This document shows positions 19,302 through 23,813 of a stretch of DNA of 64,000 nt, in pieces. This DNA is from Nitrospira sp. Lineage in GTDB: Bacteria; Nitrospirota; Nitrospiria; Nitrospirales; Nitrospiraceae. Each line of letters opens with the position of its first letter. Position 1 is the stretch's first letter. The stretch spans positions 434,001 through 498,000 of the forward strand of contig CP060501.1 in the NCBI GenBank assembly GCA_024760545.1, in the 5' to 3' direction. A program made the translations under genes and the position numbers. Under the pieces are notes generated by a model. It ran no database searches. It saw nothing but the letters and a program-made list of their open reading frames with translations, and was not told the origin of the DNA.

Positions 19302-19537
19302 TGTACGGGCTGAGGGCAAAAAGAAAAGGAAAATACGGGATTGTCGCAGCGATCTCCTTCCCATTCGCCTTACCCAACGGTGTCGTGCTCGTGTTGAGCA
19401 ACATCGGACCGCATAGTGGTCAATGATAGAGGACGTCCTTGTAACCGACCTCCGCTAATAAGACATCCGATGAATGAATCTGTGGTATCCTCTCTCTTTC
19501 TTGGTGGGATCCAACGGAGGTGATGATCGGCGTGACT

Positions 19538-20986
19538 ATGCGAAGAGCCAAGATCGTCTGCACCATCGGCCCGGCCAGCGAGTCGCCTGAAATCCTAGAT
19601 CGGCTGATCGAGAGCGGGATGAATGCCGCCCGATTAAACTTCTCGCACGGAAGCCACGCCTCGCACGCCGTTGCCATCGCGGCGATTCGTCAGACGGCGG
19701 CACGCCGTGGTACGGCGGTGGCGATCATCCAAGATCTGCAAGGTCCCAGAATTCGAGTGGGGCTTCTCCAGAAGGATGGGATCGAGGTCACTTCCGGCCA
19801 GAAGGTGCACCTAGGTATACCGGTTCGGCCTGGTGAGCAAGGCCATGCTCAGAACGTCGCCCCCACTTCTGTTGCCGAAATTCCAGTGACATATCCGATG
19901 CTCGCGCGCGATCTTCATGTAGGCGCTCGAGTCTTGATCAATGATGGGCTGATCGAACTGCTCACTGATCGCATTATGGATGATGTTGTGGAGTGCACCG
20001 TCATGACCGGCGGCAAGATTACGTCGTACAAAGGCATCAATCTGCCGGATACCGCCGTCAGCGCCCCTACGCTGACCAAGAAAGATCGGGAAGACATTCT
20101 ATTTGGCATAGAACAGCGTGTGGACTATCTGGCGCTCTCCTTTGTGCGTGGCCCACAGGACATCGATGAGGCTCGGACGCTATTGGCGGAGCACGGAAGC
20201 GGCATCCGGATCATCGCCAAAATCGAGAGACCCGAAGCCGTTGCTTCATTGGACGATATCTTGGAACGAGCAGACGGTGTCATGATCGCGCGTGGAGACT
20301 TAGGTGTGGAGATGGGTCCTGAAGCCGTGCCGGTCCTCCAGAAGCGAATCATTGCAGAAGCCAATCGCCGACGTCGCGTGGTCATCACCGCCACCCAGAT
20401 GCTGGAGTCTATGACGAACGCCATGCGTCCGACCCGCGCGGAAGCCTCAGATGTTGCGAACGCTGTGTTCGACAGCAGTGACGCGCTCATGCTCTCGGCT
20501 GAAACAGCCATCGGTGCTCATCCGATCGAAACGGTCCAAGTCATGGATCGCATTATCCGAGCAGCAGAGCAGGAAGCCGAACCCAACCTGATCCTTAAAC
20601 GCCAAACCGATCTGGAAAACCTGTCTTTTCCAGAAGCCATCTGTATCGCTGCTTTTTCCGCGGCCAAAGCGGTTGCCGCACGCGCGATCGTCGCCTTCAG
20701 CGAAGGCGGAGCCACCGCCCGATTGATTTCGAAACAACGTCCGTCCTCTCTCATCATCGCGTTCACGCCGTTTGAGCCGGTCAGACAACAGATGGCGCTC
20801 TATTGGGGCGTACGCCCCTACACGATGCCACAAATTGAGCAGACCGATGCGCGAGTGGAAGAAGCGGAACGACGAGCGAAATCGGAAGGGCTGGTCAAGA
20901 CGGGGGAAAAGATCGTCATCTTGTCAGGAACCCGCGTAGGGCAAGTAGGGGGGACTAATCTGATCAAGCTGCATGAGGTGAGGTAG
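19538..20986 (+). CDS. pyk: Pyruvate kinase
   Basis: A 482-residue enzyme converting phosphoenolpyruvate and ADP to pyruvate and ATP. The N-terminus MRRAKIVCTIGPASESPEIL matches the family opening exactly, which favours the ATG at 19538; GTG 19520, ATG 19523 and GTG 19532 are alternatives closer to the CGGAGG box. Further signatures are GMNAARLNFSHG, DLQGPRIRVG, the catalytic segment IIAKIERPEA, IARGDLGVEMG and ATQMLESM. The C-terminal regulatory domain is present (full length). The gene converges with the phosphatase-phosphofructokinase fusion gene, 16 bases apart, putting two irreversible glycolytic steps side by side. Confidence 0.95.
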   Translation: MRRAKIVCTIGPASESPEILDRLIESGMNAARLNFSHGSHASHAVAIAAIRQTAARRGTAVAIIQDLQGPRIRVGLLQKDGIEVTSGQKVHLGIPVRPGEQGHAQNVAPTSVAEIPVTYPMLARDLHVGARVLINDGLIELLTDRIMDDVVECTVMTGGKITSYKGINLPDTAVSAPTLTKKDREDILFGIEQRVDYLALSFVRGPQDIDEARTLLAEHGSGIRIIAKIERPEAVASLDDILERADGVMIARGDLGVEMGPEAVPVLQKRIIAEANRRRRVVITATQMLESMTNAMRPTRAEASDVANAVFDSSDALMLSAETAIGAHPIETVQVMDRIIRAAEQEAEPNLILKRQTDLENLSFPEAICIAAFSAAKAVAARAIVAFSEGGATARLISKQRPSSLIIAFTPFEPVRQQMALYWGVRPYTMPQIEQTDARVEEAERRAKSEGLVKTGEKIVILSGTRVGQVGGTNLIKLHEVR

Positions 20987-21002: not shown

Positions 21003-23330
21003 TCAACCGTCAATCATCCGAGTCTCCTGTCCATGCATGCGCGAAAAGATTTCCCAATCGAAGGGTTTGGAAGTCAGCGCGTGTAATGGAATGGTTTCAA
21101 TCGAGCCCGGCTCGCGATACGCGACCATGCAGCCGACGATGTCGTCCGGCTGTTCCACCAAACGTCTCACGGTTTCGTACGCCAATTGTTGTGCGATGGC
21201 TTTGTCCTCGGGTGTCGGAGGGGCCCCACGGAGCGTATGTCCCAGAATTGTTGCTTTGGTGGCGGGAGTGAGCGGATAGTGGCCCGGCTGCGGACAGACC
21301 TGCGGCCATTTCGAAATTTCACGGGCCACATAGTCGGGTAATCCGTGGATGCCTCCATCAGGGTGATGTTGATGGGGGGTCCGCTCGGCGACAATGAACA
21401 AATGGCTCTTGTTGGGTACCCCCAGCGATCGCTTCAGGGTTCCAAGAATCACGTCATTGATGTAGGTATCAGGGTCCGGATGTTCGTTGACCAATACCCC
21501 TTCCGCTCTCGCCTGATAGGCGCATGCCAACGCAAGGTGACCGGACCCGGCACCCATCAATTCGACAAAAAAGATGCTGCCCATCGCGGAGCTCGTGGCC
21601 TTGAGCGATTCGATGGACTGATCCGCCAGCCGAAGGGCCGAGTGGAACCCCAACGAGACGGTCCCGCGAATGTTGTTGTCGATCGTACCTGGGATCCCTG
21701 CCACTTGGACGCCGAACATTTCATACATCGCACGCGCGCCGCGTAAACTTCCATCGCCTCCCAATACCACCAGTGCGCCATCTCGCAGATACGGCTCCAG
21801 ATTGCGGACGGCTGCCTGCTGCACCTGTTGATCCTTGAAATCCTCGAACCGGCTGCTGCCGATCGGGCTGCTGGGACGGCTGCCCATCATGCGCGTGTCC
21901 TGTTCCGAGACCTTTTCAATCCAGTTGTTGGCCAACCCCAGAAACCCGTGCCGTACGAAATAGACCTCCAGGCCGAACCGGTTGCCGGTCACCCGCAACT
22001 CTTTCAATGCCGCCCCGCCGCCCGCAAAGTCTCCGCCCGAAACAAGCGCCACCAACCTCTTGATCTGTCTAGGCTTGAGTGTCACCCGATCCCGTCGTTC
22101 CTTCTCCACTGTCAGCCAGGCATCCCGTTCCGTCCGCTCGCGTTGCGACAACCCAACTGCCGTCGAGTAGCCGGACAACTGTCCGTGCTCATAGGTCAAC
22201 AGCACGACATTGTCTTGCCCTTCCTTGTATTCGCCGAACTCGGCGAAAGCCTCACTGAACGGTCGGGGGTCGAGAAAAATCACCAGCGCCCGCAACGTCG
22301 AACTGTGCGTATAGAGACAGGCGACGGAGCCGTGATGGTCGTCTGCGAGCCGATGCACCCCGTCTACGACATTCACATACGTGTCGAAGAAGGAATTGCC
22401 GCCCGGATAACTGTAGAGCGGATGTTTGATCAGCTTCTTAGCCGTCGCCCCATCGACACCGAAGGCCTGTGCCGCTGCTTCCGCTTCCACCGATTTCTCG
22501 ATGCCTGTCACCCATCCGAAATCTTGCGATTCGAGAGCATTCGCTTGTTGCGGCGCAGACGACTCCGAACCGCCGGGCGCGAGAGCTGCCACCACGCGGT
22601 GATACAGTTGGGTCGTGTTCGGGCTTCGGCTGACCAGGTGAATGAAGGTCCGCGGGTCCAGATAATTGTGGACTTGCAGATAGTCGAGCTGTTTGCCCAC
22701 TACTCCGATGATCTTCGCCAAGGCCATCCCGACTGCGTCCGCCTTGACAATCCCTCGCTCCGGATCCAGACGATTGGCGAGCCGGCATCCGACACGATGC
22801 GTCTTGCTCTCTACCTGGGAGACACCGTGCCGCATGGTGAAAAGCAGAGTCCGCTGCCCCAGATCTCTCGGCAGCAGCCAAAAACGATCATCGCCGAGAT
22901 CGAGGACGATCCGCCCCTCCGCCAGCTGTGGCGTCAGTTGTGTACGTGGAACGATCGCCACCGGCCGGCGGACCGTGGGCTTTTGACTGTGTCCGATCGC
23001 GGCACGAAGGAGCGGCGCGAGCTCTCCCGCCGCCAACAGTTTGTTCCATGCGGCATAGAAGACCAGTGCATCCCCGCCACAACTCTGATCGATCACCGTT
23101 TGTCGAGCCGCCTGATATTCAGTTGCATCGGCAAATCCCTTATGGGCGCGCTGGACCAACGACAGGATGGCCGACATAGCCGCTTCGGCCCGCTCGATTC
23201 GATCCGAACTCGCCGGGGCCGGAGGTGGAAGCGTGGGATCGCCGATGCGTGCTAACCGCATCAAGGCTTCTCCATACGCAACCAGCTTTTCAAGCGTGAC
23301 AAAATTCAACGTGGCGGCGGAAGACGGCAT
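21003..23330 (-). CDS. Fusion: histidine-phosphatase-like domain plus 6-phosphofructokinase domain
   Basis: A 775-residue protein with two recognisable halves. Residues about 160-395 resemble the phosphoglycerate mutase/fructose-2,6-bisphosphatase fold: FTMRHGVSQVE (Arg167, His168), RVGCRLANRLD, and a second His in YTHSSTLRALVIFLDPRPF (His342). Residues about 424-765 are a phosphofructokinase domain: VSGGDFAGGGAALKE, GGDGS (Gly527, the residue typical of ATP users), GIPGTIDNN and TKATILGHTLRG. Against E. coli PfkA by eye, Asp127 (here Asp551), Glu222 (Glu649) and His249 (His698) are kept, but Asp129 is Asn553, Arg171 is Ala594 and Arg243 is Lys692. The phosphatase part also departs from the RHGES...N consensus. 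Residues 1-155 are helical and unassigned. The ATG at 23330 is the likely start; the frame extends to 23459. Confidence 0.85.
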   Translation of the reverse strand: MPSSAATLNFVTLEKLVAYGEALMRLARIGDPTLPPPAPASSDRIERAEAAMSAILSLVQRAHKGFADATEYQAARQTVIDQSCGGDALVFYAAWNKLLAAGELAPLLRAAIGHSQKPTVRRPVAIVPRTQLTPQLAEGRIVLDLGDDRFWLLPRDLGQRTLLFTMRHGVSQVESKTHRVGCRLANRLDPERGIVKADAVGMALAKIIGVVGKQLDYLQVHNYLDPRTFIHLVSRSPNTTQLYHRVVAALAPGGSESSAPQQANALESQDFGWVTGIEKSVEAEAAAQAFGVDGATAKKLIKHPLYSYPGGNSFFDTYVNVVDGVHRLADDHHGSVACLYTHSSTLRALVIFLDPRPFSEAFAEFGEYKEGQDNVVLLTYEHGQLSGYSTAVGLSQRERTERDAWLTVEKERRDRVTLKPRQIKRLVALVSGGDFAGGGAALKELRVTGNRFGLEVYFVRHGFLGLANNWIEKVSEQDTRMMGSRPSSPIGSSRFEDFKDQQVQQAAVRNLEPYLRDGALVVLGGDGSLRGARAMYEMFGVQVAGIPGTIDNNIRGTVSLGFHSALRLADQSIESLKATSSAMGSIFFVELMGAGSGHLALACAYQARAEGVLVNEHPDPDTYINDVILGTLKRSLGVPNKSHLFIVAERTPHQHHPDGGIHGLPDYVAREISKWPQVCPQPGHYPLTPATKATILGHTLRGAPPTPEDKAIAQQLAYETVRRLVEQPDDIVGCMVAYREPGSIETIPLHALTSKPFDWEIFSRMHGQETRMIDG

Positions 23331-23813
23331 AATCACCCAGGCGGCTGTGCGGATACAAAACGAACGTCTATCTTTCTTGAACTTTCCATAAGACGATGTC
23401 AAGCCGGAGCGGTCAGTCGAATGCGATCGAATACGAGCGTGTGAAATGCGGAAGCCCATGCGTGCGTGATTGAAGTGCTGCGGGGATCAATGTGTCTGGA
23501 TGGTCCACCAAGAAAAGCACAAGAGAGGGACGGCAAGACCAAATAAGGTACAGGAAGTTGGACGATTCAATCAAGCACCTTTCCATGGTGGTGTTCAACA
23601 CTGTTGATCTCCCATCTCCAACAGGCTACTCTCCGGCAAACACAGCGTATCTATTTCTTATGCGATTGACCGTCCCAGCCGTGAACAATCTTATCAATGT
23701 TGTCGGAAGCTAGGAATTTCCCGAGTCCTCTTTTATGAATTGGCTTGGTACAAGGACGCATGCAGGAGGCAAACCTTAACAAACCTTAGTCACAACTTCT
23801 GGAGGATGATGCT
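23331..23813. other. Divergent intergenic region between the fusion gene and the radical SAM gene
   Basis: About 480 bases with no supported gene; a 73-codon open frame at 23492-23713 has no ribosome binding site or family resemblance. It should contain promoters for both flanking genes. A candidate for the plus-strand gene is TTGACC at 23666-23671 with TCTTAT at 23689-23694 (17-base spacing), a weak match. A nine-base direct repeat lies at 23770-23788. Confidence 0.4.
23770..23788 (+). repeat. Tandem direct repeat CAAACCTTA x2 upstream of the radical SAM gene
   Basis: CAAACCTTA occurs at 23770-23778 and again at 23780-23788, a period of ten bases, or about one DNA turn. It ends some 25 bases before the ATG at 23814 and just upstream of the GGAGG ribosome binding site. 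Such spacing fits a dimeric regulator site or a feature of the 5' untranslated region. No regulator is known for it. Confidence 0.5.

Follow-up and report, generated by a model that had tools for sequence, protein, structure and literature searches.

A histidine-phosphatase-fold domain fused to a PfkA-type phosphofructokinase in Nitrospiria, a candidate regulated sugar-phosphate kinase

The window analysed here, 64,000 nucleotides of a Nitrospira sp. genome (assembly GCA_024760545.1, 4.81 Mb in two contigs; contig CP060501.1, positions 434,001 to 498,000), codes for a protein of 775 residues whose amino-terminal half has the predicted fold of a histidine phosphatase (HP) and whose carboxyl-terminal half is a phosphofructokinase (PFK) of the PfkA type. 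The fusion is conserved in the class Nitrospiria and appears to be linked to glycolysis. From its architecture, conservation, residue changes and gene neighbourhood, all observed directly, we infer its kinase activity, substrate, sensing and control: the reading favoured here, tentatively and from sequence comparison, is a sugar-phosphate kinase that would be controlled by a ligand-sensing domain derived from an HP enzyme. The presence of the fusion in 100 of 395 genomes of the phylum, the conserved ATP site and catalytic base of the kinase half, the largely lost effector site, the non-canonical HP pocket and the adjacency of a pyruvate kinase gene suggest this reading.

The gene has 775 codons on the minus strand, from an ATG at 23330 to a stop codon that ends at 21003. 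The frame can be extended to another in-phase ATG at 23459, but conservation within the family starts at about residue 8. The opposite (plus) strand of 21003-23330 carries overlapping mechanical frames only, and an Rfam scan of the whole window gave no match, as did a search of the genome for 16S rRNA. The gene and the segments of its product are as follows.

21003 to 23330, minus strand: fused HP-PFK gene, 775 residues (uninterrupted frame, full-length relatives)
22980 to 23309, minus strand: N-terminal helical segment, residues 8-117 (helices 13-25, 44-64, 69-83, 88-100 and 105-109 in the model)
22146 to 22868, minus strand: predicted HP-fold domain, residues ~155-395 (PF00300 family matches, predicted fold, structure matches)
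22071 to 22145, minus strand: helical linker, residues 396-420 (helix 396-415, low model confidence)
21024 to 22070, minus strand: PfkA-type PFK domain, residues 421-769 (PF00365, E 1e-54; Foldseek match 5xoe on a weak model)

The initial annotation of this gene had described HP and PFK domains in one chain of 775 residues, HP first, and the reading frame, the PF00365 match, the PF00300 matches of the family and the predicted fold bear this out. Its proviso that a frameshift or an assembly error might have joined two genes was followed up and the possibility rejected: the same joined frame recurs across many other genomes as full-length relatives, so the fusion is no assembly artefact. In the phylum, 97 of the 100 carriers have the pair as one near-complete frame. 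All carriers share the genus, family, order or class (Nitrospiria) of the source genome, and class members without the fusion exist, even within the same genus. A contig scan over 84,980 species, based on six peptide patterns taken from the protein and so liable to miss distant relatives elsewhere, yielded 54 confirmed loci. The sequence titles name Nitrospira, Nitrospirae/Nitrospirota, Nitrospiraceae or Manganitroph* for 53 loci and Nitrosospira for the remaining one (L018, isolate NOB2), which is probably misnamed. The closest named records, on which the kinship of the source genome is based, are Nitrospira MAGs; identity to the gene is 100% in Nitrospira sp. BO4 (L003) and 73% in Candidatus Nitrospira defluvii (L021).

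The kinase half matches PF00365 over residues 427-722 (186.2 bits, curated cut-off 30.9); in a profile scan no other kinase family was matched and no P-loop 6-phosphofructo-2-kinase domain was found. The full-length structure model (mean pLDDT 69.3, pTM 0.50) is poor in the sugar-binding domain, with pLDDT < 50 at residues 570-620 and 631-651, and the best Foldseek match obtained with this weak model is 5xoe (E 4.4e-14, rmsd 12.8 Å). Residues of this half were compared in an alignment of 47 rows, comprising this protein and 46 of the 54 contig-scan loci (8 fragmentary or split loci were dropped), and in a second, more divergent set of 31 fusion rows. Position numbers are those of E. coli PfkA, with Met as 0.

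21747 to 21761, minus strand: GGDGS, residues 524-528, ATP-type phosphate-donor site (PfkA alignment)
21672 to 21692, minus strand: PGTIDNN, residues 547-553, with the base D127 as D551 and D129 replaced by N553 (47/47 and 31/31 rows)
21576 to 21578, minus strand: Ser585 in place of R162 (Ser in 47/47 rows; Ser 29 and Thr 2 of 31 in the second set)
21549 to 21557, minus strand: MGA, residues 592-594, with R171 replaced by A594 (alignments of 47 and 31 rows)
21225 to 21242, minus strand: GHTLRG, residues 697-702, with H249 and R252 kept; upstream Lys692 replaces R243 (alignments)

G11, R72, D103, G104, S105, G108, G124, D127, M169, E222, H249 and R252 are kept in 47/47 rows, and position 125 is Thr in 42 and Ser in 5 of them. 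The same rows all carry D129N, R162S, R171A and R243K, and the 31-row set has Asn, Ser or Thr, Ala and Lys at these positions throughout. His168, His342, D129N, R171A and R243K had been named correctly in the initial annotation, as translation and PfkA alignment show; R162S, which is equally fixed in the family, was missing from its list. A study on Clostridium thermocellum enzymes describes D127 as the general base, D129 as binding Mg and other cofactors, and R162 and H249 as contacts of the 6-phosphate, and reports that pyrophosphate (PPi)-dependent PFKs with a replaced R162 phosphorylate fructose 6-phosphate (F6P) and sedoheptulose 7-phosphate (S7P) (PMC10339645); according to a 2025 review, R162 and three other residues bind the phosphate of F6P (PMC12203962). 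The carboxyl-terminal half would most likely still bind ATP-Mg and phosphorylate a sugar phosphate through Asp127, in a sugar-phosphate pocket that appears remodelled, so that its substrate, or the handling of it, would differ from plain F6P. The classic effector site has also changed, with R21K, R154K and K213N in 47/47 rows, R25V in 45, R54E in 46 and D59G/M in 47 of 47. The labels of the effector-site positions (R21, R25, R54, D59, R154, E187 and K213) are those we take to apply in PfkA.

The distance of the kinase half from other PFKs bears on one alternative, in which the protein would be an ordinary PFK, phosphorylating F6P with ATP, that carries an extra domain and tolerates the residue changes. 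A mixed set of 19 standalone PFKs, hand-picked from the phylum search, has D127, D129 and R162 in 19/19, against 0/31 fusions for D129 and R162. R243 is found in 18/19 (one Lys) and R171 in 16/19 (two Ala, one His), and Lys also stands at R243 in B. methanolicus PfkA, so that single changes of these two arginines have parallels that favour tolerance, as does the ATP-type donor site. D129, R162 and R171 are likewise intact in four more PFKs, drawn from other phyla. The standalone set is not uniform, since 4/19 have the PPi-like Lys at position 124 and D103 is kept in only 8/19; the other residues at the D103 position are Asn (9), Glu (1) and Thr (1) of 19 (L113, L114, L117-L122, L127 and L129 among them). 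The second PFK of the source genome (L002:1480-2727) carries the PPi-type signature, D104 and K124, with His at 162, Val at 243 and Tyr at 249, and keeps D129 and R171; the signature is missing from the fusion, which has Gly at both positions in 47/47 rows. The loss of R162 and R243 therefore has precedent in the superfamily, and it is the whole set of changes, above all D129N, that sets the fusion apart. Its scores lie well under the cut-offs of the NCBIfam ATP-PFK models (PFKA_ATP, 171.9 against 371.35 bits; PRK03202, 180.6 against 253 bits). In a 37-row tree 12 fusion PFK halves form one clade (support 100/100) on a very long stem branch of 5.69 changes per column, the tips inside measuring 0.083-0.23, and therefore a large change seems to have occurred once, followed by constraint. 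An ordinary PFK is improbable against these scores, residues and branch, even though the fusion is the sole PF00365 match in 20/100 fusion genomes; 14 of these 20 are at least 95% complete, two of them (G110 and G189) as single contigs.

The assignment of the HP half draws on fold and on the family, without strong similarity of the single sequence, whose PF00300 (His_Phos_1) match is weak. On this protein alone PF00300 covers residues 302-357 with 16.4-18.3 bits, under the curated cut-off of 21.7; 23 of 24 amino-terminal halves of the family match it at E <= 1 (best E 1.6e-6). An AlphaFold2 model of residues 1-425 built from 24 sequences (mean pLDDT 74.0, pTM 0.78) is weak over residues 170-194, which follow the RHG motif immediately. 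Its best Foldseek match is 1h2e (E 1.3e-5), 34 chains fall at E <= 0.001, and the matched proteins comprise PhoE/YhfR, phosphoglycerate mutases (PGMs), PFKFB, TIGAR and phosphoserine phosphatases. VIA-align matches to histidine phosphatases span about residues 153-395 and reach, among the 50 matches listed, Z 10.3-12.9 with rmsd 3.1-5.8 Å over 151-194 residues. Set against five HP proteins in a profile-profile comparison, this half scored weakly (E 0.005, probability 7%), and a PDB sequence search with the amino-terminal half profile gave only two chance-like matches. The placing of residues 160-395 in the HP clan by the initial annotation is upheld by the family matches, the model and both structure comparisons, and residues ~155-395 are thus assigned, on the predicted model, the histidine-phosphatase branch 1 fold. 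No Pfam match above cut-off fell in the preceding helical segment 8-117 when the amino-terminal halves were scanned, the segment not being searched alone. The motifs of the HP half are given below; the roles of phospho-accepting His, second Arg and acid Glu are presumed for these positions from the HP family.

22824 to 22832, minus strand: RHG motif, residues 167-169, His168 at the place of the phospho-accepting histidine (47/47 rows)
22614 to 22625, minus strand: SPNT, residues 236-239, at the place of the second arginine of HP enzymes (N238 in 47/47 rows, invariant in the divergent set)
22512 to 22529, minus strand: SQDFGW, residues 268-273, Ser268 at the place of the acid Glu of HP enzymes; Asp270 is invariant (alignments)
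22290 to 22310, minus strand: THSSTLR, residues 341-347, His342 at the place of the second histidine (H342 and R347 in 47/47 rows)

R167, H168, G169, S171, R183, N238, S268, D270, H342 and R347 are identical in 47/47 rows; N238 and D270 remain unchanged among the more divergent sequences as well, and residue 268 nearly so. Relative to ordinary HP proteins, Glu or Asp stands for the Asn of RHGxSxxN, and sequence and profile alignments place Asn238 at the second Arg and Ser268 at the acid Glu. The register could shift by 1-2 residues, because the alignment is weak, and the model does not decide; no conserved Arg is found in the neighbouring registers either. The departure of this half from the phosphatase consensus had been recognised at the outset and extends to the second Arg, the acid and the motif Asn; the accompanying caution that both kinase and phosphatase activities need proof is upheld.

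Both halves are under purifying selection, and neither is a passenger in decay: the median dN/dS over 103 close pairs (related, not independent) is 0.085 in the HP domain and 0.064 in the PFK domain. The N-terminal helical segment (22980-23309) evolves faster than the rest, at 0.170. Constraint on both halves is one of the points in favour of a self-opposing bifunctional enzyme, in which the PFK half would add and the HP half remove the same sugar-phosphate phosphate, like animal PFK-2/FBPase-2 (6-phosphofructo-2-kinase/fructose-2,6-bisphosphatase). The PFK base and ATP site and HP residues R167, H168 and H342 are kept in 47/47 rows, the invariant D270 could act as acid in such an enzyme, and Foldseek ranks PFKFB3 sixth (E 1.9e-4) and the bisphosphatase domain from rat liver 17th among its matches. 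Mutases, PhoE and phosphoserine phosphatases rank similarly, however, so the matches do not point to PFKFB in particular, and the second Arg and usual acid Glu are replaced. Class I fructose-bisphosphatase (FBPase; PF00316) moreover occurs in 20/20 genomes, picked mainly for few contigs: 14/14 with the fusion and 6/6 without it. GlpX was found in 0/20 of the same genomes, and matches to phosphorylase (PF00343) in 17/20, mostly partial and weak, do not separate the groups with and without the fusion. A role of the HP half in filling a missing FBPase is accordingly not supported. With this FBPase and, in 80/100 fusion genomes, a further PF00365 match, there is no gap in those genomes that either activity would have to fill. 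The self-opposing enzyme, although next in order after the sensor-controlled kinase, is thus rather unlikely. The residue changes are fixed family-wide, so the protein is a remodelled pair and not a plain PFK joined to a plain FBPase; of the two interpretations offered in the initial annotation, the simple self-opposing F6P switch is not supported in that form, and the regulation of one half by the other fits better. A report on Great Lakes Nitrospira describes their genomes as having no phosphofructokinase (PMC9239080), which agrees with a patchy requirement for PFK.

The fusion is linked to pyruvate kinase by its neighbourhood.

19520 to 20986, plus strand: pyruvate kinase gene (pyk), convergent, 16 bases from the stop of the fusion gene (open reading frame, PF00224 match)

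The neighbourhood was compared at 74 loci, the 54 from the contig scan and 20 further ones; in at least two cases a pair of loci apparently derives from one contig. In 49 of the 64 evaluable loci pyk lies within 1 kb of the fusion, upstream and divergent in 27, downstream and co-directional in 19 and downstream and convergent in 3; it is 2.4 kb away in one locus, and in 10 the flank is too short to judge. Among the upstream divergent loci, 7/27 have a pyk only 36-38% identical to that of the source genome, as compared to at least 61% (61-100%) elsewhere. This recurrence in different arrangements and with divergent pyk genes is stronger evidence than the raw count. The pyruvate kinase family is present in 97/100 fusion genomes and in 33/63 of the remaining class genomes (Fisher p 4e-12, without correction for relatedness). 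These 163 genomes are taken to be the class members that are also in the 395-genome search. Loci without pyk, whose neighbouring translations were judged by eye, have pilus-like genes recurring in a few, and no metabolic neighbour stood out among them.

Adjacency and co-occurrence with pyruvate kinase would also suit a protein with two catalytically dead halves that binds nucleotides and phosphosugars and acts as a regulator or scaffold, perhaps with pyruvate kinase itself as its target. PfkA D129, R162, R171 and R243 are all changed, as are the second Arg and the acid of the HP half. However, D127, the ATP-site residues, the HP nucleophile and the second His, which dead enzymes often lose, are invariant here, and R162, R243 and H249 are changed as well in the PPi-type PFK of the same genome. 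PPi-dependent PFKs with a replaced R162 are, moreover, active according to the C. thermocellum study (PMC10339645). A dead regulator is therefore doubtful, ranking behind the self-opposing enzyme and ahead of an ordinary PFK.

In the sensor-controlled kinase favoured here, which we hold to be the likeliest of the readings without giving it even odds, the HP-fold half would most likely no longer be a normal phosphatase. Its RHG/His pocket may serve to bind a phosphorylated metabolite, and the domain may control the kinase half, standing in for the effector site largely lost from the latter, and the fusion would act together with the neighbouring pyruvate kinase in forward glycolysis. Several observations weigh against this reading. 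D129N may abolish catalysis, because D129 is described as binding Mg and other cofactors in PfkA (PMC10339645). Both histidines of the HP half are kept in every row, as in an active phosphatase, and effector-site residue E187 is kept in the PFK half. The fusion as sole PF00365 match in 20/100 genomes fits a plain PFK role too. At 14 loci with at least 2.5 kb on both flanks no pyk is found, and neither the neighbourhood nor the co-occurrence counts are corrected for relatedness. The 37-row tree resolves no sister of the fusion PFK clade, with long-branch effects leaving its origin unsure. A bolder proposal, to which we give little probability, is an independently evolved bacterial counterpart of PFK-2/FBPase-2, whose PfkA-derived half would write and whose HP half would erase a phosphate on a sugar-phosphate signal other than fructose 1,6-bisphosphate; in Nitrospiria this signal would determine which way carbon flows at the steps of PFK/FBPase and of pyruvate kinase.

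Each half is related to a known system. With bacterial ATP-PFK (PfkA, PF00365) the fusion shares the fold family, GGDGS, D127, M169, E222, H249 and R252, and it differs in the fixed D129N, R162S/T, R171A and R243K, in the loss of most effector residues and in the large amino-terminal HP half. The PPi-dependent PFKs, including the second PFK of the genome, also belong to PF00365 and have R162 replaced as well (by His in the latter), but that enzyme has D104/K124 and keeps D129 and R171, whereas the fusion has G104/G124 and has lost both. With branch 1 of the HP superfamily (PhoE/YhfR, PspA, dPGM, TIGAR; PF00300) the fold, RHG and second His are shared, but the fusion lacks the second Arg, has Glu or Asp where the motif has Asn and Ser where the acid lies, and carries long insertions. 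Eukaryotic PFK-2/FBPase-2 (PFKFB) likewise combines kinase and HP-fold domains within a single polypeptide, and the HP half matches its bisphosphatase domain; the order of the fusion is reversed, however, and its kinase half is PfkA-type (PF00365), whereas that of PFKFB is a P-loop kinase. Yeast PFK, in the 2025 review, has an amino-terminal glyoxalase I-like domain, likewise a regulatory-looking addition from another enzyme family, but this domain has a different fold and the enzyme is a tandem duplicate (PMC12203962). The same review has no word beginning with 'phosphatase' or 'Nitrospir', and it expects further domain fusions in the PFK superfamily (PMC12203962). Both domain families are known; their combination, order and fixed residue set were not found in open-access literature, where no paper on an HP-PFK fusion was met (subscription journals lay outside the search). 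As far as found, the control of opposing glycolysis and gluconeogenesis is not described at the protein level for Nitrospiria, many of which are autotrophs, and a fixed, remodelled PFK-HP fusion linked to pyruvate kinase by neighbourhood is a concrete candidate regulator. It may be an example of a fused domain that has taken over the regulation of a PFK from the classic effector site and, as its carriers include nitrite oxidisers, hints at an undescribed built-in control of their sugar metabolism.

Departures from the single near-complete frame are few. Genome G274 lacks about 140 amino-terminal residues, in G224 the pair is split over two contigs, and in G300 it is broken by stops; the latter copy (L105; G300:C1:133636-135927) lies 337 bases from pyk and is either decaying or affected by sequencing errors. 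Two seemingly divided contig-scan loci gave no evidence for separate genes: in L054 (Manganitrophus GAC4) a one-base frame change falls inside continuous homology, and in L052 the frame enters masked bases. Among plasmids 63 records were matched, none covering 80% of the query. A search of the 395 phylum genomes with the HP-half profile detected 101, the same 100 and G376, and no whole HP half without a PFK half. G376 has two short frames (C51:4-291 and C37:162164-162448) that correspond to residues 3-96 only, without the HP domain or the fusion PFK half; one of them touches a contig start, where an assembly break is possible. A piece corresponding to residues 695-770 with 59% identity (G366:C44:4131-4358) lies ~4.7 kb from a full fusion and represents a partial duplication.

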